From assembly GCA_016490735.1 (NCBI GenBank), contig JAEMWC010000039.1, positions 541,001-605,000 on the forward strand: a DNA stretch of 64,000 nucleotides, read 5' to 3'. Position 1 is the stretch's first letter, and each line of letters opens with the position of its first letter. This document shows positions 2,278 through 52,695 of this stretch, one piece after another. A program made the translations under genes and the position numbers. A model generated the notes under the pieces. It saw only the letters and a program-made list of their open reading frames with translations. It had not been told where the DNA came from and searched no databases. Origin of the DNA: Pachyseris speciosa. Taxonomy: Eukaryota; Cnidaria; Anthozoa; Scleractinia; Pachyseridae.

Positions 2278-3588
2278 TTAGACAAAAGCTAAAGGGAAAC
2301 CAGAAAGAATGTTGCATTCACGGAAAGTATTTCCCAGATGCTCTGCAGGGGAACCGTTGCCATTGTCAATCGTACTGCGAGCCAAGTCATCTGAAACCGC
2401 GGTCGTGTTCATAACTTTCTGAACTTGTGTATAATAGTCGACCAAGGCAGTGGATTTCCAGCCAATGTGCCTCGCTACTTCTTCTTTGGACACGCCTAAA
2501 AGTCTTAGAAGAATGGAGTTTCCGGCTCTAAAACCATGGACTGATGCACCCTCATTAATGCCAAGGGGGGATAGGTACTTAATAAGCCTGGCTTGAGCGG
2601 TAGAAGCACGAAGGGGAGCATTGAGAATATCACCTTTCTTGGACGTGGGGCGGAAAAGAAAGCCAGCAGAAAGGTCGAAGTTCATAGCCGTACACAAGTT
2701 GACGAAAAACTGCAAATTCCTAACAAGGCAAATAGCGGGATTACCCGTTTGTTTAACTGCAAAAGCTCTTGAAAGCTTCCCTCTTAACGTTTTACCCACG
2801 CGTTGGTGAAACAGAAGACTAGAACCATCAGGGTGTTTTAAGACATCAATCGTCTTAATTCTGCCAAGGTCGGAAGCTCTGTCGCCAGAGAAAAAGTCGA
2901 GCGAGAAAAACGCCAGGTCACGGGCACAAATGTAACGTTCAGAAGGAGAGATGCTTTTACTTAACAGGAGACTCCTTAAGTGGAATACAATTTTTTTTTT
3001 AATTTATCAAAAAATACAGGGGTCGCTTGCTTTGGAGTAGTCTAGCCTGAGCCTGTTCTGTCTGAACAGATTTGAGGTATTGTTTAACTGATAAATGCGA
3101 GGCAGGATTTCCAAAACCGAAACGATCGTCCCAGTCACCAGAACGACCCAAGGCGTTACAAATAGAGCGTAATTTCCCGATGAGAGAATCCACTGTGCCC
3201 GCAGATAACCGAGTAGGACAGTTACAGGTTTGTTTTCCCTGTAAACCAAGGAACTGACACGAGTTAAAGTGCACCATTGTTTAGCCTTTCCCATCTTTCC
3301 AAACTAGAAAACGGACGATATCCTTGAGGTAGCCGAAAATAAAGTCTTCTACGGTTGAAAAGAAGCCAGAAAAGAGGAAAGTTCGGACTCCAGTTGCGTT
3401 TCTTGGCGTTGGTAAGCCCTAGAAGCTCTAGCGGAATCGAGCTCCTTAATCCTGGCGTCTATATGTGCAAGGTCAATCTTAAGCCTTTTGGACGCGTGAC
3501 CGGGGATACGAGAAAATCTTTGAAGTCCACACCGTTGGCAGAACTGAAAGCAGTCGTCGTTTGGATACGAACACTCACTACACTGCAC
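2278..3588 (-). pseudogene. DIRS tyrosine recombinase (broken)
   Basis: The C-terminal catalytic half (2,799-2,278) has the tyrosine recombinase hallmarks: HGFR (the HxxR box), HIGWKS and the terminal DYYTQ containing the nucleophile tyrosine. The N-terminal end (3,588-3,349) opens with paired CxxC motifs (MQCSEC...FCQRCG), a zinc-binding start. The middle, about 3,294-3,007, continues the protein in a different frame (GTVDSLIGKLRSI..., a core-binding-like segment), and 3,000-2,800 contains several stops. The enzyme would recombine the circular DNA intermediate into the genome. Frameshifts in the middle make it non-functional. Neighbours are RNase H upstream and the B1 repeat downstream. Confidence 0.8.
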
Positions 3589-5563
3589 GGCTGGGCGTCA
3601 AACTCGGGGAACCGAGAAGGTGTCCTAAACGGAAAAAGTCTGAATTAGGGAGAAACTCTAAATGCCCAAAGGTCCCAAGGCAAAGGACGAGGAAGGAATA
3701 TTCCTGTTGACGTGGGAATAAAAGTACATCGTGGTCACCCAAAACACCGAGGCGGACAAAATCTTGAGCACGCCTTGAGATAACAGGCCACCAGTAACGC
3801 CGAGGAAAAGGGTCAGGCACAATAATGGTGAACGGGCAGGACTGGGAGTCCAAGAATCGCAGCAAAATCTCGGTTAAAGCCAATGGAGGAAACACGTAGG
3901 CGTTGTCTAAATGATGGAGAGTTTGGAAAAAAACGTTAATCCCGGCGGAGTTTTGAGTTGGCCAGGGGGTAAAATGTTTCATGGGGTGGCCTTGAGCATT
4001 CAAAGGTGTATTTGAATCCAGGGTCATTAAATCGACGGAGTGGGGGCCCCAGCGTTTCTCAATGTCCATCCAAACACGAGATGACAGCATACAATCACTG
4101 GAAGAGAGAGCCCTGGAGGGGGCATCAGCGAGATTACCCTTTGAAGGAACATAAACCAAAGATAGGGCGATATTAAATCGCAAAGAAGTTTCGTAAATAG
4201 CTTGGGGACGTCAGTAAGGGACTTGCTTTTACTCCCTTGATTTGTCCAGGCGCGAACTAAAGGGAGGCTATCAACGTGGGCGTCTACTCGGGAAGCCGCA
4301 AGAGACGCAGCACCAGCCATGAGGGTATTCTTGAGCGCCAAGGCTTCTCTGATGATTATCGGTTGGGAACTATACCCAGATGACCAGTAGTCACGAACTT
4401 GAACGGAATTTCCAGATTTGTCGGAGAAGACACTACCCCAAATTGAGTTCGAGGCATCAGAAAAAGTAGAAATAACTACATGTCTCTCGTCAAACCAGGG
4501 AAGACAACCTTGCCAGTTATCCAGGAATCTCCAATATTGGATTTCTCGTGAAAGATCACCAGCGACGATAAGCGGTTTATGGGTGACTTTGAACCGGACG
4601 AAATAGCAAGAAATGAGGCACGCGTATAAAGTCGAGCAGCGGGGACAGCGATAGAGAACGAAGTGGTTTTGCCAGCGAAACGTTGCAAAGTCTTAAGGTC
4701 CACAGATTCCTGAGATAAAATGAATACTCTCAAAGTCTTAAATTTGAGTTTCTTATCCTCTGGGAGAATGAATGCCATTAAAACAGAATCCGAGAGGTAA
4801 TCCAAGAAACGGACGCGCTGGGAAGGGACAAGAGACGATTTTGACAACGCGAGCGTATAACCCAGTGAAGTGAGAACTGAAACGAGAATAAAAGCAGCGG
4901 CCTGGGCCAATTCAAAATCAGACCAAATTGGAGAGTTTGGATTCCCGCGCACCATAAGCTGGCCTGTATGGCGATCGTCGATGTATTGCGAGCAGGGCAC
5001 GCCCAGAGTTCTAATATAACTAGTCGCCAACAAACCAGTGGAGTGATAAATGTAGGCGCTTGCCTTTCATCCGAAGGGGAGGGTATTATAAACGAAATAA
5101 CAACCTTCCATGAAAGCCCAAAAAGGGTTCTACTAGACGGAGATAGACAAATGTGGTCGTAGCCACTCTTGTCGTCACAGACAGTCTGACAATGACCAGG
5201 ATCAACGTACCTAGGGAGGTCAGATAAGTAAACCAACGAAAAGAGGCAATCCTTAATCCACAAGTTTAAAAACCGTTCGTCGTGGCACATACGTGGTTTA
5301 GTAGGCTCAACAGTTATGGGCATAACGAGATGTGGGGGCTGGCCTTCGCCCACTTTACCCCAAAATATAAGCGAACCATTTCTAAAGCGATCGATAATTG
5401 TGGAGGAGATAAAATCTTCAAACTGGGAACAGATGGGGTTATTAGGAAATTCCATTCTAGGAGGAAACGGCGCGTCGTGAGATTTGCCCGCGAATCTGCC
5501 TTTAAATGGAACTATAAAATCAGCAACGTCGACTTTCTTCCGAATAAGAGAAATTGGCTCCAC
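3578..5563 (-). pseudogene. DIRS reverse transcriptase-RNase H (broken)
   Basis: Read on the - strand, 5,563-5,034 carries reverse transcriptase subdomains (PPHLVMPITVEPTKPR, then CDDKSGYDHI). The protein then shifts frame into 5,033-4,476, which contains the catalytic QYIDDR motif and the thumb. The RNase H part follows at about 4,341-4,130, again in two frames, ending with the typical YVPSKGNLADAPSR. Downstream of that is the W-rich extension seen in DIRS-order Pol proteins (for example PFPRRYWWPVISR). At least three frameshifts break the gene. Its role would be copying element RNA to DNA. It overlaps the start of the recombinase gene by about ten bases in another frame, an arrangement common in compact retroelements. 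Confidence 0.8.
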
Positions 5564-6044
5564 CTGGGAAGGAAATTGTTGTGAGATGTAATCTCACTGA
5601 GCTAAGTTGTTGTGAAGTTGTCCAGGTACAAAAGAGGCCGGGTCTCTAAAAACGTGCAAACTTGGACAGGCGTTAACGAAAAGAGAAGCCACTTGCTGAG
5701 GCGAGGGGAGAGGGCGGACAAAACTGGTGGGCTTGCCCTCCCAATTGCGCCATTTTTGCGTGACAAGAAGGGCTGGACAACTCGAAATAGAGGCAAAAAA
5801 AGAAGGTTTAAATCTCTTGTAAGGAGGCGATCCCTGAAAGAGAACAAACAAAAAAAAAAAAAAAAAAAAGAGCTAAGAGGGAGGCCAAAGAAAAACCCAC
5901 CAGAGTTGCCGGCCTTAAGCAACCTCAGAGAGGCACAAAGGCATTAGACACCCGCACTCAAGGCACGACAAAACTGGTAAAAAAGGGACCAACCACAATG
6001 AAAAAGACAAAAAATACACGAGGCTTCCTTTAATAGCAAATCAG

Positions 6045-7893: not shown

Positions 7894-8860
7894 TATTTGT
7901 TTATACACGGTAAAATCTTCAGTATATATTACATTAATAAAAATATTAATTAAAACAACACTGTTTTACAAGATTATCTTGTGGGAGGCCGACTGACAAT
8001 TGTTGTAAATTTTCTCAAGTTCCCTTTTAAAATATCCAAGAGAGTCTGATTTTCTTAAATTTACGGGTAGGCTATTCCATAGTAGCGCCCCGCTGTAGCC
8101 CAAGGCACGCTTACAATAGTTCGTGCGTGGCAGACCGGTTAGCTCAGTGGTAGAGCACCGGACTACCATGCGGGAGGTCGCGGGTTCTAACCCCGGCCGG
8201 ACCAACACTCAGGGTCTTAAAAGTAACTGAGGAGAAAGTGCTGCCTTTGTAATGACATCTGCAAATGGTTAGACTTTCTAGTCTTCTCGGATAAGGACGA
8301 TAAACCGTAGGCCCCGTCTCACAGTACTTTCACTTAATCTGATTCTGTGGGACGTAAAAGAACCACTAGGGACGTAACAAAACTCTGGCTATGACCACCC
8401 CTAGTGTCTGTCCTAGATATCTACATTAAGGGGGCACTCATTAGTTACTTCATTAATTGTAAACTGCACTAGCAGTCTGGTCAAGTCCCCCGACCAGTGA
8501 TGTAAACTATCCCTGAAAAGCCCCGACGGGGAGAGAATAAGCATGTATGTATGTATGTATGTATGTATGTATGTATGTATGTATGTATGTATGTATGTAT
8601 GTATGTATGTATGTATGTATGTATGTATGTATGTATGTATGTATGTATGCATGCTTGGGCAGGTTTAGTTTAATCTCAGAATCTTAAGTTATACGGTGTA
8701 CTACGGATGCTAAATAAATCCTGCAGGTATGCTTTGGAAAACCCTTTAATTATTTTAAACATTAACATCGCCTGAAGCTTTTTCCTTTGCGTGGAGAGAT
8801 TGTCCCAGTTGAGCCTATTTAGGAGGAGAGTGGCACTAATGTCATAGCTGGACTTGGTTT
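7894..8860 (-). mobile_element. LINE 3' end (CR1/Rex/L2-like), copy 1
   Basis: The - strand encodes the C-terminal end of a non-LTR retrotransposon polymerase, including NYCKRALGYSGALLWNSLP and KSDSLGYFKREL, the usual motif after the reverse transcriptase domain. It is interrupted by a SINE at 8,131-8,653; the intact equivalent is at 48,982-49,260. The 3' UTR and microsatellite tail lie to the left. Only the last part of the element remains, a typical 5' truncation. Confidence 0.75.
8131..8653 (+). mobile_element. tRNA-derived SINE with (ATGT)n tail
   Basis: The head (8,136-8,207) is tRNA-like: TTAGCTCAGTGGTAGAGC is a good pol III A box and GGTTCTAACCC a near-consensus B box. The body follows, then a long (ATGT)n tract (8,542-8,650). 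The empty site is preserved in copy 2 near 49,118, where CGTGCGTGG is followed directly by CTTGGGCAGG. No clear target duplication is seen. A functional tRNA is unlikely because the body continues as a repeat and the ends do not form a clean acceptor stem. Confidence 0.85.
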
Positions 8861-9999
8861 ATTGAAGGAAAACGCGAGTTTATATGGTATTTATATTTAT
8901 CAGAAATGACATGAAATTACAATAACTACGTGTGCGTCAAAGCTATAGGAAAATAACAAGGCAACTAAAATGATCTAAGTTAATCCCCCCCCCCCCCAAA
9001 AAAAAAAAAAAAAAGAAGTTAGAATAAAGCAAGAAAAGCTGAACATTTCTTCGCGTTTCTTTGGGCCTGCAGGTGCTAGTGTCTTACCTCATTGAATAAG
9101 ACATGTCTCAAGAGCGTTAACTTTGTAATGGGATAAAGTTTGGTGTACAGTTGTTCGAGATGTATCAGGATCATATGATCACTGGTAAAGAAATGTTGGT
9201 AGTGGGATTAAAACTTGAAGGGTTCATAAGGGGCCGCCTATGCTCATTAAAGCGATCTTTAAAAACGACGTTTGGTTTACCCGATATATCGAAGGTTACA
9301 TTTAGTACATTGAATCATATAGATTACATTGAAAGTATCGCAAGAAATGTGCGATTTGATTTTACTAGTATTATAAAATATGTATTGATCTCGGGCATGT
9401 TCTAAATAAGGACATATGGTACTATTGTTAAAGTATATACCACGCAAGTTGAATAATTATGGACTCCGACAATCGAAAATGGCTTATTCAGTGGTGGGCT
9501 TCTCAATTGCCGATCAGCCGCCGCCAAAATAGCGGTAAGCCATTTATTGTTGTTAAAGTTTCCGTCTCGCGTTCTTGCGGATAAGTAAAACTTCTGAATA
9601 CACTTATTTTATTGCCCGGGTGACATTTCTTCAATTGGTGTTTGAAATTCGTCTTGCTGTTAAAACCATACTGCCAAACAGTAAATGTTTCATTTTTTTA
9701 TACTTATTTAAACTGCTTGACAGTTCACGTAAAGTATCGTACCTTTTTTATGCCTTAGAATTTGAGTTTGGAAAGATTAAACAACTTTCCATTAAAATGC
9801 AGTCAAACCAGACTTTGTTGTCATTTTTGTATTTTTCGGAATAGCCCCCTTGTTTATCGATAAAATTTGCTCCATGGTAACCGAGGCGAAACGGGGAATC
9901 ATTTTGTTTTCTCCGTTTTTTCAGAGGTGAATGGTACTTGCTATTCACCTCCGAGCTAATCAATCTGAATGCACGGAAAAAGCTATTCACTTGTGTGGT
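8861..9999. other. No supported gene
   Basis: This segment is shared by both duplicated copies. It includes a C/A homopolymer run near 8,987-9,014 that is absent from copy 2. A possible first exon on the + strand, starting ATGGACTCCGACAATCG at about 9,460 and ending at GCG|GTAAGC near 9,535, is open in both copies, but I could not find a convincing second exon. Confidence 0.4.
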
Positions 10000-10400
10000 A
10001 TATCCTAAACGCAAATGTGGCGAGGATGGCGAAGGATGGAGAAGATTGAAACGGATTACAAATGACATTTTTAAAAAATTGAGACAAAATCCAAAGACCG
10101 TGACGTAGCTCCTTTAACGATGCATACCTGTTTGGCTACAATTTAGGGGACCATTTCTTGATATGCTCTATTTCAGTGCAAATACTTTCTTTGTTTCAGT
10201 AAACCAATATGGCCAGGAGTCACGTGAATGAAAACGATCTATTATCGTTATTGTGTTTTTAAATATATTTTCTGATCTCGTTTGCAATGAGAATTTGGCA
10301 ATGAGGTTTAGCCCTGCCTCAATTTTTTAAAAAGGTCTTTTGTAATCCGTTTCAATCTTCTCCATCCTTCACCATCCTCGCCATATTTACATTTAGTCTT
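10000..10400. repeat. Foldback element, copy 1
   Basis: An arm near 10,015-10,085 (contains GGATGGAGAAGATTGAAACG) is matched in inverted orientation at about 10,320-10,395 (CGTTTCAATCTTCTCCATCC). The arms are some 75 bp with few mismatches, separated by about 240 bp. The same structure occurs at about 50,405-50,800, so it predates the duplication. Confidence 0.75.
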
Positions 10401-10699
10401 GTCTCGTTGGTGCTTATCTTCTTATCTTCCACAAATCAGTGTTATTTCACTGTTACTTGTTATTAAAATGCACTTTTATGTCTCTAATAGTGACCTAGAA
10501 TATAGTGACCGAGCTCCTTTAAAGTCTGTTCGACTGTGCGCACTTAGGTAGATTTGCAGGCGTTTCCAGCTTCACTGCCAACGAACATCCATGCTCAGCC
10601 AGTGTTTACCAAGTGCTACAGGTGTAACCTAATTTGTTTGATGAGCATATCGTAAAGTAACAGTAAAAGAGGACAACGCATTTCTCTGCTGTAAAATAA

Positions 10700-10705
10700 T
10701 TTATT
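10700..10705 (-). promoter_or_regulatory. Poly(A) signal of the secreted-protein gene
   Basis: AATAAA on the - strand, about 145 bases after the stop codon of the secreted-protein gene. The corresponding site is kept in copy 2. Confidence 0.5.
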
Positions 10706-10850
10706 TATAAATCGCTGCTCTACAGTACAAAACCTTTTGGTACAAACTGATCTTTGAGATCATGTTTGGTTTTGGTGGTATGTGGTGATTGTCCATCGCC
10801 TTCACGTTGCTTCTACATTAAATTAGTTATAATTCTTTTCGTTTTCGGTT

Positions 10851-12228
10851 TCAATAACAATCGTACGGCAAAAGCACTGTGGTTGTGCTGGTGTCTGTAG
10901 CGCTGCAACATGTTGAATAGGTAACCACTTGCTTCTTCTGATATCCTGTGCATCCGTTTCCTGTCTTGCAAACCACAAGATCGTACCTGTTGCTGCAGAT
11001 AGTTATGGGGATGATTTTTTCAATACACCTGTTTGATGCACTGGATGGTGCGTATCCAGTTGCGCCAGCAACGATACTTTGCAAAGAAATAGGATTACAG
11101 CTTGCGCCTTGAGACGACGGAGAACTTTGAGGTCTAGCGTCAACAAGTCCAATGAAGCCAACAGAGATAGCCAGGAACAGCGTGACTTTCAAAATTTGGA
11201 TGGCCTAAAGAACAAAAAGGTAAACATGTCGGTTAAATAAAGTGAAAAGTTTACCGCCGCGCATGCTGCGATGGTTAAGGGTTGTTAAATGCACGTAAGT
11301 TAATCAAGATAGTGCATCTTTGAGGTATACTTAAGTCCTTAAAATGTTGATCACTGTTAATTATTGGTCGAAAAATTCTTCCAAGGCGGAAATGTTGAAG
11401 AACATGCATAACTGAAGCACTCTCCACCACCCCACTCCCCTAGGAAGAACCTGATATCCTGGCGGCAAAGAATGAGCAATAACTGTTTCACAAGATAGTG
11501 TGCCTAAAGTTACTTTAGTTACTAAGTTAGTTGCTATTCACTTTCTTCATTTGAATTCCGGAAGATGCCTTCCCTGATCTACGGAAAAATAATTGAAACC
11601 GAATTGGAGATGGCAAGATTCCGCAAGAGGATCATATTAGGCGAGTGTAATTGTGTAACACTTTCTCCATCTCTGATCTGCATTTGGTAAATGACTGAAC
11701 AAACTGGAAAAAATAATTCAGCAGTGACAAATGAATGTATTCCCTGTCAACGAGAAAAATACACAGCACCGTCTCCTGGCGTTTCCAGATTGGGTTAGTT
11801 AACAGGAAGTGATTCGCTCGGATTCTTCGACTAGAAGTTTGAGTCGCATACAGTTCCAGAGACGATCATTTCTCATTCGACGAATATTCAAGCTGCAGCT
11901 GGCTGCCGAAAACGCTAGCTGATATTATCAGTACACATGTCAAGACTTATTTGCCACTCCTGAATTTCTGAATCCATTAAGGCTCTCCCGATCTCCACTG
12001 AAACAGACCACTAGGATGCTGCGACCAGTCCTTTCTTAGTAATAAAAAATACTTAAGGTGACTATGATAGTTAAAGAAACAGTATAAAATAACAATTCTA
12101 AAGCTAAGAATCTAAGTGCTATAAATGTAAAACGGAAACGACAAGCTAAGGAGATGATACAACTATCGCATCAGTAAAAAGTTTCAGAACAAAATTAGAG
12201 AGCTTACCAGCTGAAAGAAGTTCGCCAT
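10851..12228 (-). CDS. Small secreted Cys-rich protein, copy 1 (two exons)
   Basis: Exon 1 coding part (12,228-12,208) is ATG plus six codons (MANFFQL) ending at CTG|GTAAGC. Exon 2 (11,204-10,851) begins after TTCTTTAG and keeps phase. The joined product is 124 residues: a clear signal peptide (MANFFQLAIQILKVTLFLAI, then SVGFIGLVDA) with cleavage likely before RPQSS, a short Ser-rich segment, then a compact domain with eight cysteines, including a CC pair and a final C two residues from the end. The protein is probably exported with four disulfides. I do not recognise the family; a toxin, mucus or skeletal-matrix role cannot be told apart from sequence alone. A TATA box lies about 95 bases upstream of the ATG. 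The intron is about 1.0 kb. Copy 2 at 51,255-52,593 differs by one residue (Ile/Val). Confidence 0.85.
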
Positions 12229-12322
12229 ATTTTCTTGCGTGTTCTTGCAAACGAGTCCTGTGAGATTCTTCTACTTCTTCTAGCCAATAAACTGAGATAC
12301 ATTTCTCTCGAATCGTGAAGCT

Positions 12323-12330
12323 CTTATATA
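12323..12330 (-). promoter_or_regulatory. TATA box of the secreted-protein gene
   Basis: TATATAAG on the - strand, in the context GGGTATATAAGAGC. It is about 95 bases before the ATG, giving a 5' UTR of roughly 65 bases if transcription starts 30 bases downstream. It is conserved in copy 2. Confidence 0.7.
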
Positions 12331-12399
12331 CCCAAGTGAGTCAAAAATAGATTCTATCTTTCCTGTAGTGTGATGTAGACATTAGTTTCATAATTTTTT

Positions 12400-17599: not shown

Positions 17600-18047
17600 T
17601 AAATCGGAACCGGATAAACTCTTTATTGATGGCAAGTTCATTTCTGCGTAAGGGTTATATTATCTGTGACCTTTATTTGTTATAGCAAGGCTGTAAGGTG
17701 TTATCGTTTGGTTATTGTATATTATAACCATGCAGCAAAAGCTCTCTAGGAGAGATGTCGAATTATTTAATTAGTTCCATCCTCAAGGGCAGCGTTAAGG
17801 ATATTTATCTTGCTGCTCTCTTAAGTTTTGTGTTTTTCAGTATTTCGTTGAAATGTAATTTTTTCGTTTTTGCTTTTGTAGATGTTCTGCTTTGCTTTTA
17901 CTATGTTTTTCAAAGCTATTCTGGTGCGTTAATGAGGATATATTCTTTAAAGTTTGAAGGTGCCAAACTGACGCTTAACTTTTCCCACCTAATGAAGTTG
18001 TTTTTCCCTTTGGCGAAGAAGGGCGTAGTAACGTTGATTTTAGCCTT

Positions 18048-21000
18048 TTGTCACTAAATGCTCGAGGGATTCGTACTTTTGAAAAGCGGAAAGCAATTTT
18101 TAGCTGGCTTTTAAATTCTGGAGCCGCTATTTGTTTTCTGCAAGAAACCTACAGTACTCAAGAAGTCGAAAATATCTGGAGAAAACAGTGGAAAGGAAAC
18201 ATGTTCTTTTCGCACGGTAGTAGCCATGGTCGAGGTGTACTTGTATTGGTAAGGGATAACTTAGACTTTCAACTACGATCTATCAAGGTTGATTCTCAAG
18301 GCCGCTATGTTTTCCTAGAGGTTTCCATCCAGGATTCACCATACTTTCTTTTAAATATTTACGCTCCAAACAAATGTAGTGAACAATGTACCTTTCTTAA
18401 AGAAATATCAGAAATTTTGAAAGCTGCTAGAACAGAACAGGATTACCCAATTATCGTCGGAGGCGATTTTAACGTTATACTTGACCCTGACTTAGATGGA
18501 CGAGGCGGAAACAACAGAAAGAAAGACTCCGCAATATTAGTTGAAGATATGCACCTCGATTTCGATCTGGTTGATATCTGGCGTATTAGGAACCCCACTA
18601 CATCACGATTTACTTGGCGCCAAGAAACTCCGGTTGTTCAGAGGCGTTTAGATTTTTGGCTTATAAGCGACAGTTTGCAAGATGAGATAATTTCAGCGGA
18701 GATTAAAACATCAATAAAAACTGACCATTCGGCAATAATGCGGCTTAGATGAAACTGAGAGAGGACCGAATTTCTGGAAATTCAATTCGAACTTAGTGAA
18801 TGACTCGGACTACTGTGAACTTTTAACCACTGAATATGCGAATTGGTTAGAGGAATTTAAAGAAGTTCAGGATAAGCGTGTTTTATGGGATTTAATTAAA
18901 TACAAAATAAGACAGCGAACATTTACTTACAGTAAAGGTAAAGCCCGTGAAAGAAGAGCAAAACTACAAAAGGTGGAGGATAAGCTGAAGGAATGTACAG
19001 AAAAATGTGATATTGATCCAAATAGTGGAAATCTCGAGGAACTGGAGTGCCTTCAAACAGCATATGATCAATTGTACGATTACATTACACAAGGGGCAAT
19101 CATTCGCTCTAGGGCAACTTGGTATGAAATGGGTGAAAAAAACAACAAATATTTTTTGAATTTAGAAAATTCAAACAAAACTAAAAGTAGTGTCCGTAAA
19201 ATCTTAAAAACTGAGGGAGCATTAACTAGCGACCCAAAAAAGATCATGAATGAATTGGAATTATATTACTCTAATCTTTATGATGGTAGAAATTCCGCAG
19301 ACACGCAGACTATTTCTTTATTTATAAATGATCTCACCGAAGTTCCATTTTTAGCCGAGGAGAAGAGGAACGTTTGCGAGGGCATCCTTAGATATGATGA
19401 ATGCTATAATGAATTACAGACCTTCCAAAAGAATAAGTCGCCAGGGAACGATGGTTTAACAGCCGAGTTTTACTTAGCCTTTTGGCCCTTGCTTGGAAAG
19501 TTGGTAGTTGATAGTTTGAACTATGCTTTCGAATACGGTGAACTATCGAACTCACAGAAACAGGTCGTTATCACCTTAATTGAAAAGAAAGGAAAAGACA
19601 AAAGGTTGGTGAAAAATTGGCGTCCAATATCTCTTGTAAATGTTGATGCTAAATTGGTGTCTAAAATTTTGGCAAAGCGTTTGGAAAAGGTGCTTCCTGA
19701 AGTAATTCATTTTAATCAAAACGCGTTTGTAAAGGGGAGAACAATTTTTGATGCCGTCAGAACGATCGATGATGTGATTGAATATGCTAGGTACAAAGAT
19801 ATACCTGGGATTCTAGTAGCCTTCGACTCGCTCAATTTAAATTTTCTTTTAAGAGTATTACATGCATTTAACTTTGGTCCTTCTTTTATTCAGTGGATAC
19901 GAGTCTTATATAACAACGCCTCTAGCTGTGTAATGAACAATGGTTTTACAACAGGACGTTTTGCACTAAGTAGGGGAGTAAGACAGGGAGATCCCCTCTC
20001 TCTCTACCTGTTTATAATAGCTTTGGAGACCTTAGCTATAAAGATAAGAGAAGATGATGGCATTAAGGGCATTACGATACGAGATGAACCTGTTAAACTT
20101 TCCCTTTTCGCTGATGACATGACCTGCTTTATCAAAGATAGTAGTTCATATACAAACCTATTCGTTACGCTGAAGACTTTTGGTGAATATTCTGGTTTAA
20201 AAATAAATAATGAAAAAACCGAAGCCTTCTCTTTGGGAGGGGTATTCTGATATGCCAAATCTTTGTAACACTATTAAAATTCTAGGCGTCTACTTTGGCT
20301 ATGACGTTAAACAAAGAGATGAATTGAATTTTAGGAATACTTTGAAATCACTTAAGAAGACGATCAATTTGTGGAATTGGCGTGGTCTTTCTCTTAGGTA
20401 GAATACAAATTATAAAAACCTTTGCCATCCCTAAGTTTATGTTTAGAGCGTCGGTGTTGCCAATTTCTAAAGACCTTATTAAAGAGGCCGACTCGCTTTT
20501 TTACTATTTTATTTGGAATGGGAAAGATAAAGTAAAACGAAATGTGATGATTTCGGAAGTTGAGAAGGGTGGCTTAAATATGCTCGATATTGATTCTATG
20601 GTTCGTACCAGACGAGTGATATGTATAAAAAAATATTTGGAAGACTATAAAAGTCCGTGGAAAGCTTTTTTAAATGAGATTCTTATCCCCGTTGGTGGGA
20701 ACCCATATTGTATTGTAATTTTGATACTTCTAAATTAAGAATTTATCTACCAAGTTTCTACAAGCAATGTCTCGATGCGTGGTCAGAAGTAAATGCAAAA
20801 ACACCCAGCTCGCTACACGAAATTGCAAATGAAGTTATTTGGAATAACAAGCTTCTCTGCATTAATAAGAAATCTGTGTATCGTAGAGATATTGCAGATT
20901 TAGGGTTTTTAAAAATTTGCGATCTATTTTCAACTAAAGAAAATCTCAATCCTGAACAAGGTTTCTTCATTATGGGTATTATTAACTCTATGCCTGCCAG

Positions 21001-21720
21001 TTGGCGCTTGACAATTAAAAGGGAAACTACTCGGCACCGGTGATTGATCCACTTCCGGGTTCACCTGCTATCCTAATAAGTAACAATTTGGTCCCAATTC
21101 TTGATGCTTCCTCAAAGCAAATCTACCGGCTTTTCCTGGAGAAAAAAGAAACAACGCCTACTGCTAAAGTAAAGTTAGCTGCAAAGTATTCAAACATTGA
21201 TATTGATTGGAAAAGTGTTTATTCGCTATCTTTTCGCACAACATTAGAATCTAAACTTAGAGAATTTCAGTTTAAAATTTTAAACCGTATTGTCTTTACA
21301 AACGAAAAACTGTTTCGTTTCGGCATGGCTGAGTCGGCATCCTGTGCTTTCTGCCAAACAGAGGTTGAATCCGTAAAGCATTTACTCTTTTCCTGTAGAG
21401 TATCATCTAGTTTTTGGAAACATGTCTTGTCCTGGTTGCGCGATAATAACATCTCTGTTGATAACCTTAAAGAAGAGGATGTCATTTTTGGTAAGTTCGA
21501 TATTGCAGAAGATTTTCTCCTGTTTAACCATATTTTGCTTCTGGGTAAGTTTTATATTTACTCTCGGAAATACCAGAATGGTATACCTTCTCTTCAAGGT
21601 TTTATAGCCAGGACAAGGCGTATTTACAACATCGAACATCAGATTGCCAGGAAAAGAGACAAATTAAACAATCATTTTAGAAAGCGGGAAAAGTTAATAA
21701 GCGTTTTTGCGAATAAGTGA
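18048..21720 (+). pseudogene. LINE ORF2: endonuclease and reverse transcriptase (broken)
   Basis: The N-terminal AP-like endonuclease (18,048-18,752) keeps its signatures: LNARGI, FLQETY, GGDFNV, RRLDFWLIS and TDHSAI. After a frameshift the reverse transcriptase runs 18,796-20,250, with SPGNDGL, NWRPISLVNVDAKLVSKILA, SRGVRQGDPLS and the catalytic FADDM. Motif A is shortened: AFD is followed directly by SLNLNF. Further frameshifts occur near 20,240, 20,400, 20,730 and 21,040. The C-terminal piece (21,040-21,720) has a CCHC-like CAFCQTEVESVKHLLFSC. FADD and this zinc motif favour the Tx1/L1 group over CR1-type elements. Confidence 0.85.
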
Positions 21721-26112: not shown

Positions 26113-26612
26113 TGTTTTGAAACTGAGCAGTGAAAACGTAAAGCTTGTGGGATGTGGCTGGAGTGACAAGGATATACCTCACAAATGAATGTGATTTGGC
26201 CGAAAAAGCTGTCCATGGCTGCTAATGCTTGGGCTCAATCTTTGCTTTGGTAGATTTAAGGGGTAATGCCCGCTACCTTGTGGCCTTAGTGCCTTTAGAG
26301 TGGCTTCAGCTTACCAAATCACATTCATTTGTGAGGTATATCCTTGTCACTCCAGCCACATCCCACAGGCTTTACGTTTTCACTGCTTGTTTTATGGGTA
26401 TGTGGGTACGTGAGCCTGAGCATTAGCTATGCCATGCTGATGAGGCCTAACAAGGCCGAAACAGCTATCCATGGCTGCTAATGCTTGGGCTCAATCTTTG
26501 CTTTGGTAGATTTAAGGGGTAATGCCCGCTACCTTGTGGCCTTAGTGCCTTTAGAGTGGCTTCAGCTTACCAAATCACATTCATTTGTGAGGTATATCCT
26601 TGTTTTGAAACT
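26113..26612 (+). mobile_element. Hammerhead-ribozyme retroelement (retrozyme/Penelope-like)
   Basis: A 476-bp insertion (26,125-26,600) flanked by a perfect 12-bp target duplication, TGTTTTGAAACT (26,113-26,124 and 26,601-26,612). It has about 1.5 tandem copies of a 256-nt unit, with the CTA triplets at 26,222-26,224 and 26,478-26,480 one period apart. At the left end a 73-75 bp inverted copy (about 26,127-26,199) pairs with 26,314-26,386, with about one mismatch. One complete hammerhead-like motif and one 5'-truncated motif are present. No protein is encoded. Tandem copies, hammerheads, an inverted 5' piece and a short target duplication recall Penelope-like elements and metazoan retrozymes. 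The assignment rests on this architecture. Confidence 0.75.
26412..26492 (+). ncRNA. Hammerhead ribozyme candidate
   Basis: The core is CTGATGA (26,437-26,443), stem II GGCC-TAACAA-GGCC, GAAA (26,458-26,461), stem III CAGC-TATCCATG-GCTG, then the cleavage triplet CTA (26,478-26,480; NUH rule) followed by ATGCTTGGGCTC. That last strand pairs over 12 positions (with G-U) with GAGCCTGAGCAT at 26,412-26,423, giving stem I of a type I hammerhead. The oddity is 13 bases between that strand and CTGATGA; CAT next to the core could pair with ATG instead, leaving one extra G. Activity is therefore uncertain. A second, 5'-truncated motif lies at 26,199-26,236. Confidence 0.7.
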
Positions 26613-30041: not shown

Positions 30042-33000
30042 TTAACATCGCGGTCTCCGCAATCAGTGCCTGGAAACTGCAAGAACCCCCTACCCTATTC
30101 CTCCATTATTTTCGTTTCCTAGGAATAGGAAGTCGTTCCCAATTTCGGCTTAAAATGTGAGTAGTTCGCGCTCCAATTTTCAGCTAGCTTCCCACGCAGT
30201 CGTGAGAGCCGGTTAATTTCAGCACCTTCTTCGCTTGTCATCGTTTCTCCATACAACATAACCCTTTTCCAACAACTTTTCAAATCTCTCTTCAAGTTCT
30301 GTTTAACAATTCCAGATTACGGATATTAAACTCTTTACCTTTATAGCAGATCTAGTTTTATTTCACTGGATCTTTTTAGTTTTGACCTGTACATGTCAAC
30401 ATGTGTCATAGCCTTTACACAGTTTTGCGGGTCAGGCCAATCCTATCCCACATCAAGTTTGTGTTCGATCACGAGCCCTGGTTCGATATATTATTGGAGA
30501 CAGTGTGATGGACTAAAACAATATTGAAGGAATTACTTTTTTGCTATTCACCAATTAGATACTTGTCTATACATGTATTGAAAAACAGAAAATTTTCTTA
30601 TTTATTTGTTCCGTCCCCTCCCACATTTTGTTCCCTCCCCTCCCTTCCCATGACACAACAAACAAACCAATTAGCATAGTCACGTTCAATGTAACGCAAG
30701 ACAGCAGGCGAAGTTATTCTTGTTGGTTTAATATAACGGTCCGCGACCTTGAGTTTGTAGCTTGGAAACTTTGAAAACCGTAGCCGCATGAAAACCATCA
30801 ATGATGGAAAGAAAATTGCAGAAAGTAGTGCCATTGAATAGGGTCGCTTGTGTTTGTTGGAAGCATTCAGAGCATTTTCTCCGTGGGCAGGCCGTGAGTG
30901 TATTGTTTCAAAATTATTAGCATAATGTATTTTATGTTTGTGTGTCCCCTCAAGATGCATATAATATCTACAATTACCAAATTGTAAAACTTTAACTTTA
31001 GAATTCGATATTTTCCATCTCGTGGTCCACAACGTGAATTAACAAAATTTATTCAATAGACTACTTACAACCGCCAATGTTTACTCTGTCGGTCTCCCAA
31101 GCCATAAAGACTGATCACATTTATCCAACGTTTTACCACAACACAAAATTTTTATTGCATACAATCATTAAAGAAAGTTAAGACCCATTGTTTAGAAGGC
31201 CAGTAAAAGAATCTGAACGGGAAAAAAATATCTTTTCGCCAATTTTTAGAATTATGCAAATGACTTTGACACCAACGATAATTATGTAAACACATGGATT
31301 TTCGTCAATTTTGAACTCGTGGTGTGTGGAAGCTAAGGTGAAACCCGCCGGTTTGAAGCGATATACCAGTTCATTGGAGTATAGACTTTGCTCTGATGTG
31401 GCTTTTTATCACGATTTAGACCAAACATTTGAGATTTATTTCCTTTCATTTGGTTAGCTTTCGATATGCAAATTAAGGCTCAAGAGAAGGGTGTCTTCTA
31501 ATCACGCTGGAACACGTAATATTTTCTTGTAAGTTTCTACATTTTGTCTGTGAACTAACTGAATACACCTTGTAACTTGTAGCAAAATATAATTCAGTGA
31601 GCTAGATTTTTGCAGTCAGAGCGCGCTTGACAAAATCTGTGAAATTTAGACTTTCGATCGCTATCAGTTCGGGCAGGTGAGCCAAAATTCAATTTGGGCC
31701 TGTGGCGGCGCAAAAATAAAGAATTGGAAAATAATTATAGCATTTTTTAAACATGTGTACCAAACCCTTTTCATGGTCAAAAAATAAAGGAAAACTTTTT
31801 TGGTCGCCAAGTCGAGAGGACCTCTTTTTAGCATTATTTTAGCACTTTTTTGGCAAAAAACAAGCACTGCTTTAAGCATTTAATGCTTTTTTTACGAGCA
31901 CTATCGGTAAGAACCTAGCCGCGCAAAGCCTGCATGGAAGGCGCTAGAAAAGAAAATGGAACTGTGGAAGCGGACGCGCGCGCTAACTCCCTCCCGTCCC
32001 GTCGCACTCCGTGCACTTTCCTCTCGCTTTTCCTCTCGCTTTCCCTCTCTAGTTATGCAGCTAGGGGAGAATACCAGATTGCTAAACCTTATTTCTGTCA
32101 TTTTCGAGCGAATCTGCGTTTTCAGTCGTCAGCGAAAGAGGAAAAGGATCTGCCAGCTGCACTTGTTATGCTCCTCTCGGGTTCAGACAACTTCTTGTTT
32201 TTAAACAAAATGTCATCAAAACAGGTAAATTTCCCGTCCTTCATAGCCTGCGTGACAGGCGTAGAAAGTGGATGGGAAGGAAGGGAAAAGGAAGACCTCT
32301 ACGGCCGCCACGCAGGCTAAGTCCTTGAGTATCACTTTGAAAATTTCCAGTTGAGAATAGAACGCTCCGTTCTAATTAACATCGCGGACTCCGCAATCAG
32401 TGCCTGGAAACTGCAAGAACCCCTACCCTATTCCTCCATTATTTTCGTTTCCTAGGAATAGGAAGTCGTTCCCAATTTCGGCTTAAAATGTAAGTAGTTC
32501 GCGCTCCAATTTTCAGCTAGCTTCCCACGCAGTCGTGAGAGCCGGTTAATTTCAGCACCTTCTTCGCTTGTCATCGTTTCTCCATACAACATAACCCTTT
32601 TCCAACAACTTTTCAAATCTCTCTTCAAGTTCTGTTTAACAATTCCAGATTACGGATATTAAACTCTTTACCTTTATAGCAGATCTAGTTTTATTTCACT
32701 GGATCTTTTTAGTTTTGACCTGTACATGTCAACATGTGTCATAGCCTTTGCACAGTTTTGCGGGTCAGGCCAATCCTATCCCACATCAAGTTTGTGTTCG
32801 ATCACGAGCCCTGGTTCGATATATTATTGGAGACAGTGTGATGGACTAAAACAATATTGAAGGAATTACTTTTTTGCTATTCACCAATTAGATACTTGTC
32901 TATACATGTATTGAAAAACAGAAAATTTTCTTATTTATTTGTTCCGTCCCCTCCCACATTTTGTTCCCTCCCCTCCCTTCCCATGACACAACAAACAAAC

Positions 33001-36000
33001 CAATTAGCATAGTCACGTTCAATGTAACGCAAGACAGCAGGCGAAGTTATTCTTGTTGGTTTAATATAACGGTCCGCGACCTTGAGTTTGTAGCTTGGAA
33101 ACTTTGAAAACCGTAGCCGCATGAAAACCATCAATGATGGAAAGAAAATTGCAGAAAGTAGTGCCATTGAATAGGGTCGCTTGTGTTTGTTGGAAGCATT
33201 CAGAGCATTTTCTCCGTGGGCAGGCCGTGAGTGTATTGTTTCAAAATTATTAGCATAATGTATTTTATGTTTGTGTGTCCCCTCAAGATGCATATAATAT
33301 CTACAATTACCAAATTGTAAAACTTTAACTTTAGAATTCGATATTTTCCATCTCGTGGTCCACAACGTGAATTAACAAAATTTATTCAATAGACTACTTA
33401 CAACCGCCAATGTTTACTCTGTCGGTCTCCCAAGCCATAAAGACTGATCACATTTATCCAACCTTTTTCCCACAACACAAAATTTTTATTACATACAATC
33501 ATTAAAGAAAGTTAAGACCCATTGTTTAGAAGGCCAGTAAAAGAATCTGAACGGGAAAAAAATATCTTTTCGCCAATTTTTAGAATTATGCAAATGACTT
33601 TGACACCAACGATAATTATGTAAACACATGGATTTTCGTCAATTTTGAGCTCGTGGTGTGTGGAAGCTAAGGTGATACCCGCCGGTTTGAAGCGATATAC
33701 CAGTTCATTGGAGTATAGACTTTGCTCTGATGTGGCTTTTTATCACGATTTAGACCAAACATTTGAGATTTATTTCCTTTCATTTGGTTAGCTTTCGATA
33801 TGCAAATTAAGGCTCAAGAGAAGGGTGTCTTCTAATCACGCTGGAACACGTAATATTTTCTTGTAAGTTTCTACATTTTGTCTGTGAACTAACTGAATAC
33901 ACCTTGTAACTTGTAGCAAAATATAATTCAGTGAGCTAGATTTTTGCAGTCAGAGCGCGCTTGACAAAATCTGTGAAATTTAGACTTTCGATCGCTATCA
34001 GTTCGGGCAGGTGAGCCAAAATTCAATTTGGGCCTGTGGCGGCGCAAAAATAAAGAATTGGAAAATAATTATAGCATTTTTTAAACATGTGTACCAAACC
34101 CTTTTCATGGTCAAAAAATAAAGGAAAACTTTTTTTGGTCGCCAAGTCGAGAGGACCGCTTTTTAGCATTATTTTAGCACTTTTTTGGCAAAAAACAAGC
34201 ACTGCTTTAAGCATTTAATGCTTTTTTTACGAGCACTATCGGTAAGAACCTAGCCGCGCAAAGCCTGCATGGAAGGCGCTAGAAAAGAAAATGGAACTGT
34301 GGAAGCGGACGCGCGCGCTAACTCCCTCCCGTCCCGTCGCACTCCGTGCACTTTCCTCTCGCTTTTCCTCTCGCTTTCCCTCTCTAGTTATGCAGCTAGG
34401 GGAGAATACCAGATTGCTAAACCTTATTTCTGTCATTTTCGAGCGAATCTGCGTTTTCAGTCGTCAGCGAAAGAGGAAAAGGATCTGCCAGCTGCACTTG
34501 TTATGCTCCTCTCGGGTTCAGACAACTTCTTGTTTTTAAACAAAATGTCATCAAAACAGGTAAATTTCCCGTCCTTCATAGCCTGCGTGACAGGCGTAGA
34601 AAGTGGATGGGAAGGAAGGGAAAAGGAAGACCTCTACGGCCGCCACGCAGGCTAAGTCCTTGAGTATCACTTTGAAAATTTCCAGTTGAGAATAGAACGC
34701 TCCGTTCTAATTAACATCGCGGACTCCGCAATCAGTGCCTGGAAACTGCAAGAACCCCCTACCCTATTCCTCCATTATTTTCGTTTCCTAGGAATAGGAA
34801 GTCGTTCCCAATTTCGGCTTAAAATGTAAGTAGTTCGCGCTCCAATTTTCAGCTAGCTTCCCACGCAGTCGTGAGAGCCGGTTAATTTCAGCACCTTCTT
34901 CGCTTGTCATCGTTTCTCCATACAACATAACCCTTTTCCAACAACTTTTCAAATCTCTCTTCAAGTTCTGTTTAACAATTCCAGATTACGGATATTAAAC
35001 TCTTTACCTTTATAGCAGATCTAGTTTTATTTCACTGGATCTTTTTAGTTTTGACCTGTACATGTCAACATGTGTCATAGCCTTTGCACAGTTTTGCGGG
35101 TCAGGCCAATCCTATCCCACATCAAGTTTGTGTTCGATCACGAGCCCTGGTTCGATATATTATTGGAGACAGTGTGATGGACTAAAACAATATTGAAGGA
35201 ATTACTTTTTTGCTATTCACCAATTAGATACTTGTCTATACATGTATTGAAAAACAGAAAATTTTCTTATTTATTTGTTCCGTCCCCTCCCACATTTTGT
35301 TCCCTCCCCTCCCTTCCATGACACAACAAACAAACCAATTAGCATAGTCACGTTCAATGTAACGCAAGACAGCAGGCGAAGTTATTCTTGTTGGTTTAAT
35401 ATAACGGTCCGCGACCTTGAGTTTGTAGCTTGGAAACTTTGAAAACCGTAGCCGCATGAAAACCATCAATGATGGAAAGAAAATTGCAGAAAGTAGTGCC
35501 ATTGAATAGGGTCGCTTGTGTTTGTTGGAAGCATTCAGAGCATTTTCTCCGTGGGCAGGCCGTGAGTGTATTGTTTCAAAATTATTAGCATAATGTATTT
35601 TATGTTTGTGTGTCCCCTCAAGATGCATATAATATCTACAATTACCAAATTGTAAAACTTTAACTTTAGAATTCGATATTTTCCATCTCGTGGTCCACAA
35701 CGTGAATTAACAAAATTTATTCAATAGACTACTTACAACCGCCAATGTTTACTCTGTCGGTCTCCCAAGCCATAAAGACTGATCACATTTATCCAACGTT
35801 TTACCATAACACAAAATTTTTATTACATACAATCATTAAAGAAAGTTAAGACCCATTGTTTAGAAGGCCAGTAAAAGAATCTGAACGGGAAAAAAATATC
35901 TTTTCGCCAATTTTTAGAATTATGCAAATGACTTTGACACCAACGATAATTATGTAAACACATGGATTTTCGTCAATTTTGAGCTCGTGGTGTGTGGAAG

Positions 36001-48981: not shown

Positions 48982-49260
48982 TGACAATTGTTGTAAATTT
49001 TGTCAAGTTCCCTTTTCAAATATCCAAGAGAGTCGGATTTTCTTAAATTTACGGGTAGGCTATTCCATAGTTGCGCCCCGCTGTAGCCCAAGGCACGCTT
49101 ACAATAGTTCGTGCGTGGCTTGGGCAGGTTTAGTTTAATCTCAGAATCTCTTAAGTTATACGGTGTACTACGGATGCTAAATAAATCCTGCAGGTACGCT
49201 TTGGAAAACCCTTTAATTATTTTAAACATTAACATCGCCTGAAGCTTTTTCCTTTGTGTG
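48982..49260 (-). mobile_element. LINE 3' end, copy 2 (uninterrupted)
   Basis: The - strand encodes FKIIKGFSKAYLQDLFSI, NYCKRALGYSGAQLWNSLP and KSDSLGYLKREL continuously. It is the uninterrupted equivalent of the SINE-split fragment at 7,894-8,860. Confidence 0.8.
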
Positions 49261-50404
49261 GAGAGATTGTCCCTATTTAGGAGGAGACTGGCACTAATGT
49301 CATAGCTGGACTTGGTTTATTGAAGGAAAACGCGAGTTTATATGGTATTTATATTTATCAGAAATGACATGAAATTACAATAATTAAGTGTGCGTCAAAG
49401 CTATAGGAAAATAACAAGGAAAACTGAACATTTCTTCGCGTTTGTTTGGGCCTGCAGGTGCTAGTGTTTTACCTAATTGAATAAGAAATGTCTCAAGAGC
49501 GTTAACTTTGTAATGGGATCAAGTTTGGTGTACAGTTGTTCGAGATGTATCACGATCATATGATCACTGATATTATGATCACTAGTAAAGAAATGTTGGA
49601 AGTCCGTAGTGGGATTAAAACCTGAAGGGTTCATAAGGGGCCGCCTATGCTCATGCAAGCGATCTTTAAAGGCGACGTTTGGTTTACCCGATATATTGAA
49701 GGTTACATTTAATACATTGAATCATATAGATTACATTGAAAGTATCGCAAGAAATGTGCGATTTGATTTTACTAGTATTATAAAATATGTATTGATCTCG
49801 GGCATGTTCTAAATAAGGACATATGGTACAATTGTTAAAGTATATACCATGCAAGTTGAATAATTATGGACTCCGACAATCGAAAATGGCTTATTCAATG
49901 GTGGGCTTCTCAATTGCCGATCAACCGCCGCCCAAATAGCGGTAAGCCATTTATTGTTGTTAAAGTTTCCGTCTAGCGTTCTTGCGGATAAGTAAAACTT
50001 CTGAATACACTTATTTTATTGCCCGGGTGACATTTCTTCAATTGGTGTTTGAAATTCGTCTTGCTTTTAAAACCATGCTGCCAAACAGTAAATGTTTCAT
50101 TTTCTATACTTATTTAAACTGCTTGACAGTTCACGTTAAGCATCGTACCTTTTTTATGCCTTAAAATTTGAGTCTGGAAAAATTAAACAACTTGCCATTA
50201 AAATGCAGTCAAACCAGACTTTGTTGTCATTTTTGTATTTTTCGGAACAGCCCCCTTGTTTATCGATAAAATTTGCTCCATGGTAACCGAAGCGAAACGG
50301 GGAGCCATTTTGTTTTCTCCGTTTTTTCAGAGGTGAATGGTACCTGTTATTCACCACCGAGCTAATCAATCTGAATGCACGGAAACCGCTACTTACTTGT
50401 GTGG

Positions 50405-50800
50405 TATATCCTAAATGCAAATGTGGCGAGGATGGCGAAGGATGGAGAAGATTGAAACGGATTACAAATGACATTTTTAAAAAATTGAGACAAAATCCAA
50501 AGACCGTGACGTAGCTCCTTTAACGATGCATACCTGTCTGACTACAATTTAGGGGACCATTTCTTGATATGCTCTATTTCAGTGCAAATACTTTCTTTTG
50601 TTTCAGTAAACCAATATGGCCAGGAGTCACGTGAATGAAAACGCTCTATTATCGTTATTGTGTTTTTAAATATATTTTCTGATCTCGATTGCAATGAGAA
50701 TTTGGCAATGTGGTTTAGCCCTGCCTTAATTTTTCAAAAAGGTCATTTGTAATCCGTTTCAATCTTCTCCATCCTTCACCATCCTCGCCATATTTACATT
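50405..50800. repeat. Foldback element, copy 2
   Basis: Same inverted arms (GGATGGAGAAGATTGAAACG and inverse) as at 10,000-10,400. Confidence 0.75.
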
Positions 50801-51254
50801 TAGTCTTGTCTCGTTGGTGCTTATCTTCTTATCTTCCACAAATCAGTGTTATTTCACTGTTACTTGTTATTAAAATGCACTTTTATGTCTCTAATAGTGA
50901 CCCAAAATATCGTGACCGAGCTCCTTTAAAGTCTGTTCTGTGCGCACTAAGGTAGCTTTGTAGGCGTTTCCAGCTTCACTGCCAACGAACATCCATGCTC
51001 AGCCAGTGTTTACCAAGTGCTACAGGTGTAACCTAATTTGTTTGATGAGCATGTCGTAAAGTAACAGTAAAAGAGGACAACGCATTTCTCTGCTGTAAAT
51101 TAATTTATTTATAAATCGCTGCTCTACAGTACAAAACCTTTTGGTACAAACTGATCTTTGAAATAATATTTGGTTTTGGTGGTATGTGGTGATTTTTCAT
51201 CGCGTTCACGTTGCTTCTACATTAAATTAGTTATAATTATTTTCGTTTTCGGTT

Positions 51255-52593: not shown

Positions 52594-52687
52594 ATTTTCT
52601 TGCGTGTTCTTGCAAACGAGTCCTGTGAGATTCTTCTACTTCTTCTGGCCAATGGACTGAGATACATTTCTCTCGAATCGTGAAGCT

Positions 52688-52695
52688 CTTATATA
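52688..52695 (-). promoter_or_regulatory. TATA box of the secreted-protein gene, copy 2
   Basis: TATATAAG on the - strand in the same position relative to the ATG as in copy 1. The transposon end at 52,750 lies about 55 bases upstream of it. Confidence 0.7.

Follow-up and report, generated by a model that had tools for sequence, protein, structure and literature searches.

The locus at 26113-26612 of the window, by which we mean the whole 64,000-nucleotide stretch of Pachyseris speciosa DNA that was analyzed, raises the question of what kind of element it is and by which machinery it was inserted. Sequence comparison revealed a 12-bp target-site duplication, TGTTTTGAAACT, at 26113-26124 on the left and 26601-26612 on the right; matches of at least 12 bp were found in 37 of 199,347 random site pairs of the window compared with equal slack. 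From left to right, the first copy of the duplication is followed by a single extra G at 26125, likewise identified by sequence comparison, an inverted arm of 74 nt on the minus strand (26126-26199), a direct arm of 401 nt on the plus strand (26200-26600) and the second copy of the duplication. The direct arm comprises 1.57 units of 256 nt, and the direct repeat with a spacing of 256 (26198-26347 and 26454-26603) is identical at 148 of 150 nt. The inverted arm matches 26314-26387 with a single mismatch (73/74). The two arms share GG at their head-to-head junction (26198-26199), and TGT at 26601-26603 is common to the end of the direct arm and the target. When the unit is numbered from the predicted ribozyme cut, with nt 1 at 26214, one complete unit from cut site to cut site (nt 1 to 256) lies at 26214-26469 on the plus strand, the inverted arm runs from nt 174 down to nt 101, and the outer end of the direct arm is at nt 131.

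These outer ends fall at two putative RT start sites, referred to below as sites A and B. In the first unit, site A (nt 131-134) is at 26344-26347 on the plus strand, where UGU at nt 132-134 can pair with ACA-3' primer ends, and the site B region as defined by the first genomic sample (nt 163-175) is at 26376-26388 on the same strand, within a predicted hairpin loop and immediately downstream of it. No open frame on the 256-nt circle is longer than 66 aa, so that no protein is evident, and the GC content of the unit is 47%. The circle was predicted to be strongly self-paired (z -5.1), with 63% of its nucleotides paired. The sequence-only reading had described a 12-bp target duplication, about 1.5 tandem units of 256 nt, an inverted piece of 73-75 bp at one end and a protein-free, non-autonomous hammerhead retroelement of the metazoan retrozyme kind, and this description was upheld in each part. 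Other copies in the genome carry their own, different duplications, and 31 head-to-head inserts flanked by 10-17 bp speak against its caveat that the 12-bp match might not be a target duplication.

A type I hammerhead was recognized in unit 2 at 26411-26494 on the plus strand by alignment to HH9, by a structural descriptor and by pairing. It contains CTGATGA at 26437-26443 and GAAA at 26458-26461, two boxes that by themselves occur about as often as chance predicts (window, 2 matches; 1.69 expected from shuffles). Helix I is formed by 17 pairs (26411-26427 with 26477-26493) and 6 pairs (26431-26436 with 26470-26475) separated by a small internal loop, and stem II (26444-26457) has 5 pairs and a loop. 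The descriptor, which required paired stems I and II and a cut triplet, found a single site in the window, the hammerhead locus, while any hit occurred in 5 of 300 dinucleotide shuffles, and a hit with at least 4 pairs in stem II and at least 6 in stem I occurred in 1 of 300. In the scan with Rfam models that had been proposed as a check, the window copy gave no hammerhead at gathering score: RF02275 (HH9) scored 28.6 bits against a gathering score of 52, with an E-value of 5.3e-5 for a 651-nt stretch and 0.0052 for the whole window, which is weak by itself as several microRNA-family matches, mostly on simple repeats, have lower E-values window-wide. The check succeeded for the relative at L060, the one of 20 loci scanned that exceeded the gathering score of the type I hammerhead model RF00163 (35.9 vs 34).

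The RF02275 alignment together with GCCAUG/CAUGGC pairing places the predicted cut of unit 2 behind AUC, at 26469, and that of unit 1 behind GUC. The unit 1 triplet (26211-26213, plus strand; predicted cut 26213/26214) has A at position 15.2 and lacks its own catalytic 5' half. Across the family, helix III consists of two pairs closed by the palindrome AGCU, and GAAACAGCTGTC, that is, helix III as GAAAC-AGCU-GUC with the intact pair, occurred in 109 of the 116 family units retrieved with a pattern in which the helix III pair was unconstrained, units with other changes falling outside this count. This conservation supports the cut after GUC or AUC. CTA, which had been listed among the core boxes as the cleavage site, was rejected since it sits within the 3' strand of helix I. 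Of that earlier set, CTGATGA, GAAA and the pairing of stem II stood, and the pairing of stem III did not.

In the window insert, neither unit can form the 15.2-16.2 pair of helix III, which is A.G in unit 1 and C.A, beside the AGCU loop, in unit 2. The two units differ only at 26206/26462 and 26211/26467, which are the partners of a single helix III base pair. Selected cross-unit pairing of helix III was considered as the cause of these differences and dropped, as 109 of 116 units keep the pair. A composite ribozyme made of the unit 2 catalytic half and the unit 1 site would have six pairs and gave -52.8 kcal/mol in a constrained co-fold, compared to -48.6 kcal/mol when that half was folded with the site of its own unit. 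The folding models suggest that one cut is possible in a transcript of the window copy and that two are not to be expected, making this copy an unlikely source of the 256-nt circle; in the predicted transcript fold, 74 of 74 arm pairs of the inverted hairpin were formed, and this hairpin may hinder even the single cut. Because the 15.2-16.2 pair is broken in both units and one composite ribozyme is left, the earlier proposal that this locus could yield a 256-nt circular RNA is doubtful. Judging from its units, the window insert is an odd copy and probably a decayed one.

To place the insert among its relatives, the 983.7-Mb assembly was searched with a query spanning nt 175-134, which gave 98 matches, the best 40 of 230 candidates being scored. 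From these, 38 regions and six wider ones were extracted, and full-unit mapping yielded 39 spans at 38 loci, window included. Removing L044, L066 and L072, whose flanks recur at L040, L059 and L067, left 36 spans at 35 loci (sample 1). Exactly 256 nt was the length of 48 of 70 extracted units. The unit belongs to a dispersed family in its own genome, and this family fits the known metazoan non-LTR retrozymes. Such retrozymes are already known; what is new here is the manner in which the copies are inserted. One locus, C1537:89223-98425, is an array of the 256-nt unit of approximately 9.2 kb, with its right end at site B and no clear duplication.

A duplication of at least 10 bp was found in 23 of the 36 spans (10-17 bp, median 14), compared to 1 of 600 random flank pairs searched as control. 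All 23 duplicated inserts were head-to-head, with one outer end at A and one at B, the left end being B in 12 and A in 11. Thus the search for copies ending at common unit positions, which had been suggested from the window alone, found outer ends that recur at sites A and B. Refined site A ends lay at nt 113-134 (median 131, two at 113) and site B ends at nt 163-175 (median 169), and by subtraction the A-B spacing was 32-59 nt with a median of 40. The A and B windows, which make up 14% of the unit, held 44 of 46 outer ends compared to 3 of 46 inner ends, and the inner junctions were scattered (Rayleigh p 0.25). The arms were 23 to 3092 nt long from A and 50 to 9151 nt from B. Arms longer than the unit indicate that both cDNAs can exceed unit length, which fits a circular or long multimeric template.

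When no duplication was required, 61 of the 65 start-type ends of sample 1 mapped by BLAST lay at A or B (windows covering 23% of the unit); the 4 of 65 that lay elsewhere count against a PLE-type (Penelope-like element) origin of the inserts. Among the 13 spans without such a duplication, L069 and L071 had A and B ends with short or degenerate duplications. Others had no clear duplication, with one end elsewhere in each of L035, L045, L049 and C1537 and a single orientation in L048, L052 and L058, and L059, L076 and L077 (two spans) were complex, nested or single-orientation.

The sample 1 query could favor short inserts ending at A or B, and for this reason a long-run control and a second sample were added. 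In runs of at least 472 nt, where the query phase should not select the end, 23 of 23 ends were at A or B. Sample 2 was collected with an 87-nt hammerhead query lying away from both sites, which gave 40 matches, the best 40 of 84 candidates being scored; 36 loci were new, 30 were independent by their flanks and, after one edge-cut locus was dropped, 29 were usable. Both samples consist of best-scoring copies only, and comparison of flanks found no insert common to the two. In sample 2, 35 of 43 start-type ends were at A or B and 8 were elsewhere. Of its 14 head-to-head loci, 10 were A+B, none was A+A or B+B, and 4 departed from A and B at one end or at both. Eleven loci carried a duplication of 10 bp or more, and the 8 of these that were head-to-head were all A+B, while the remaining three, L101, L105 and L114, were single-orientation copies with the 3' end at A. 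When the two samples are pooled, every head-to-head insert flanked by a duplication of 10 bp or more (31 of 31) joined one A end (nt 113-136) to one B end (nt 163-181).

Single-orientation copies made up 15 of the 29 loci in sample 2; like the 4 head-to-head loci and the 8 start-type ends that depart from A and B there, they count against a PLE-type origin. At L048, L097, L105 and L114, single-orientation copies extend from a 5' end in the vicinity of site B (nt 163-181) to a 3' end at A, which looks as though the first cDNA had halted where the second site is held. L115-L119 contain a one-lap monomer from nt 126 to nt 126, and both flanks are common to four of these five loci, so that these seem to represent one insertion spread inside a larger repeat.

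The sequences at the starts were compared in sample 1. At site A, the primer strand ended in ACA-3' in 9 of 23 inserts, and microhomology of at least 3 nt with the template (UGU, nt 132-134) was found in 11 of 23. At site B, starts were spread over approximately 12 nt, with microhomology of 0-2 nt in 20 of 23. The duplications were 68% A+T compared to 59% in the flanks. An RNAalifold model of 22 units has two consecutive hairpins here, with A at the 3' strand of the first and B within the loop of the second or immediately downstream of it. Covariation was too sparse to support these hairpins, with a double change in 1 of 26 pairs and unpaired cells in 15 of 572. An AC-rich start region resembling that of the Anolis PLE PAc was likewise discarded, as the whole stretch nt 132-174 comes no higher than rank 46 of 256; the 20 nt richest in A+C are nt 135-154, adjoining site A. 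A shared RT signal was also considered between unit nt 110-131 and 9985-10006 (22 nt; 16 nt at 50397-50412), and was dropped because the match is weak (E 0.005) and the two positions are one locus within a 95% segmental duplication. No consistent 3' tail was seen at the retrozyme junctions examined; isolated runs of A or T occur next to L049, L077 and C1537.

A high-copy PLE family with RT and GIY-YIG domains is present in the same genome. In a search for GIY-YIG, the best 150 of 5249 candidates were scored, all 150 being above the cut-off, and 21 pairs within 6 kb occurred among the 150 matches listed, 20 of them minus-then-plus and 1 plus-plus. Four inserts (L080 and L089-L091) were mapped; because they were picked as minus-then-plus pairs, the head-to-head arrangement they show does not count as independent evidence. 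In every one of them a long end is paired with a short end, the two being approximately 90 nt apart, and the duplication measures 12 bp in three and 11 bp in L080. L089 contains a 680-aa open frame with RVT_1 and GIY-YIG, for which no solved relative was found by sequence. No sequence shared between the retrozyme and the mapped PLE family was detected (best E 3; one family, represented mostly by 3' half stretches), and the PLE ends are spaced approximately 90 nt apart vs 32-59 nt (median 40) between A and B. The absence of detected shared sequence and the different end spacing mean that the mapped family may not be the donor.

Published accounts of PLEs, as far as the available portions go, describe comparable inserts. 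The protein of PAc from Anolis cuts and extends both strands and uses two adjacent internal RT start sites, the distance between which equals the 30-40 bp tail (PMC11167929). The available text also states that PAc initiates without homology to the target (PMC11167929), and the 3-nt matches at site A count against a PLE-type start in this respect. In the A. vaga Penelope, according to the parts of the report at hand, an inverted pLTR and direct pLTRs lie in a 9-bp duplication, one of them with an optional 31-bp tail (PMC3846280).

The reading that probably best accounts for these data is a metazoan non-LTR retrozyme mobilized in trans by PLE-type machinery that primes on both target strands. 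The inverted piece and the end positions recurring across the family, which the sequence-only reading had overlooked, suggest PLE-type insertion. Transcripts of tandem copies would self-cleave after GUC, and would probably do so for the most part through ribozymes formed across units (dimer-type), because helix III of the family has only two pairs and a palindromic AGCU loop. By analogy with published retrozymes, the monomers would then be closed by a host ligase. A PLE-type RT with a GIY-YIG endonuclease would make a staggered cut approximately 14 bp wide with 3' overhangs, and both target strands would prime on retrozyme RNA, one with its 3' end at nt ~131 (site A, often as ACA-3' on UGU at nt 132-134) and the other at nt ~163-175 (site B). 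Each cDNA may run more than one lap of the template, and the two cDNA ends would be joined, often with a 1-2 nt overlap, to give a head-to-head insert in a 10-17-bp duplication. The end positions, the layout, the duplications, the ribozyme sequence and a PLE family whose mapped inserts have the same layout were observed; we infer a PLE as donor of the enzyme, which PLE it is, the order and strand of the cuts, the circular template and all RNA steps. The direct arm of the window insert runs uncut across both ribozyme cut sites, and its two unit differences argue against a single circular template unless RT error or later mutation is invoked.

Independent choice of starts does not explain A+B in 31 of 31 inserts because it would give A+B in approximately half, and this suggests that one complex holds the two start sites at once. 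A stronger model, for and against which we see about equal odds, is that metazoan retrozymes are trans-parasites of PLEs and that a single PLE ribonucleoprotein, perhaps acting as the dimer predicted for it, primes both target strands, top and bottom, simultaneously on two neighboring sites of one RNA circle made by the ribozyme. Each complete head-to-head insertion would then carry exactly one A end and one B end.

Three other explanations were weighed against trans-mobilization by PLE-type machinery. In LINE-type retrotransposition with twin priming, a LINE nick would start the first strand on retrozyme RNA and the second nicked strand would prime elsewhere, creating a 5' inversion. Twin priming also yields head-to-head inserts with target duplications, and frames with LINE RT, endonuclease and zf-RVT domains lie in the window itself at 17979-21720. 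It predicts one fixed and one variable start, whereas both starts were confined here, with one A and one B in each of the 31 duplicated head-to-head inserts. The junctions examined lacked the consistent 3' tail to be looked for after LINE twin priming. The 15-bp duplications of Nematostella repeats, which in the available text of PMC4918200 are likened by the authors to LINE ones, add some weight to this explanation, which we nevertheless regard as improbable.

A shrunken PLE, in which a pLTR-like piece with ribozyme and RT start region has lost its ORF and is still moved by the parent PLE, is somewhat less improbable, although we still consider it unlikely. In layout, paired end types and duplication length, the retrozyme inserts match the PLE inserts mapped here. 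The pLTRs of PLEs contain type I hammerheads of the minimal form (PMC6155905, PMC7761336, as described in the available portions), and helix III of the retrozyme is of the weak type. Against this, the retrozyme has no similarity to the single PLE family tested, mostly over its 3' half, and the helix I internal loop with a 5-pair stem II is the layout of HH9, unlike the published minimal PLE form. A plain satellite or tandem duplication, in which the 12-bp match arose by chance, could draw on the existence of tandem arrays such as that of ~9.2 kb at C1537, but the copies are dispersed inserts with recurring element ends and different duplications of 10-17 bp, a kind of match found in 1 of 600 random flank pairs. 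The other genomic copies refute it, and we give it practically no credence.

Elsewhere in the window, 8000-12384 and 48982-52749 form a segmental duplication of approximately 95% identity with a 3387-nt main alignment and an 82-nt inverted pair per copy. A direct duplication at 31500-35055, with a spacing of 2334-2336 nt and 98-100% identity over 300-nt pieces, is either a recent tandem duplication or an assembly artefact. The LINE frames at 17979-21720 were noted above; among the 120 homologues listed for their RT, 4 are named as Oculina patagonica, a stony coral, and one as a bacterial MAG, which suggests an anthozoan host, probably a stony coral. On the minus strand, 2278-5593 contains a Phage_integrase-like (tyrosine recombinase) match (E 2.4e-5, under the Pfam cut-off), and the long frames neighboring it had no Pfam match; we presume that this is perhaps a DIRS-type element. 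In viral contig and genome contig collections, the retrozyme patterns gave no match, and the general hammerhead pattern CTGATGAGGCC-N6-GGCCGAAA was found in 26 viral contigs (L001-L026).

The two confined ends and the one-A-one-B rule constitute genomic evidence for PLE-type mobilization and name the RNA region to test. The rule also bears on how PLEs make their own head-to-head inserts because, as a substrate, an RNA of 256 nt is less complicated than a PLE. No title or abstract reporting such ends for retrozymes was found in a literature search that lay mostly outside subscription journals.

Compared with known systems, the family resembles plant LTR retrozymes in being a hammerhead-bearing non-coding retroelement, but according to the available portions of PMC4918200, those have a type III ribozyme, a 4-bp target-site duplication, an LTR, a PBS and a PPT, and here the topology is type I and the duplications are 10-17 bp, 12 bp in the window insert. 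With the satellite-type retrozymes of newt and axolotl, it shares a very short helix III, a palindromic tetraloop and the expectation of better cutting as dimers (PMC7229834 and PMC6155905, in the parts available); it differs from them in size and host, and the likeness is one of description. The agreement with metazoan non-LTR retrozymes is closer. As set out in the available text of PMC7229834, these combine a type I hammerhead with short tandem units and no long ORF, and those of Acropora millepora measure 225-245 bp. Their tandem non-coding units of ~150-450 bp, from dimers to long multimers, compare to 256 nt and the ~9.2-kb array in P. speciosa; the type I hammerhead is seen here in the HH9 alignment, the descriptor and L060; and duplications of more than 4 bp correspond to 10-17 bp with a median of 14. 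A GC content below 50% (47% here), a coral-like host and a strongly self-paired predicted circle are further likenesses to the same account. In contrast, metazoan retrozymes are described there as tandem copies, and neither head-to-head inversion nor a pair of fixed ends is mentioned in the portions of PMC7229834 covered; helix III is here the weak palindromic-loop type of the axolotl HHR_Amex1, not the stable type that these portions give for most invertebrates.

In layout, the inserts resemble those of PLEs. They have a head-to-head inverted partial copy within one short target-site duplication, two adjacent RT start sites and one longer end or 'tail', as reported for PAc (PMC11167929) and the A. 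vaga Penelope (PMC3846280) in the portions available. Moreover, the start region lies downstream of the hammerhead cut in both, at 85-92 nt in PAc (by subtraction from the same partial source) and at 131 and 163-175 nt here. Unlike PLEs, the family has no RT or endonuclease, a canonical rather than a minimal hammerhead, ACA/UGU microhomology at A and ORF-less tandem units of 256 nt. The element is not a PLE because no enzyme is encoded, the unit having no long frame; it works like an insert from PLE-type two-strand priming, and its identity is that of a retrozyme.
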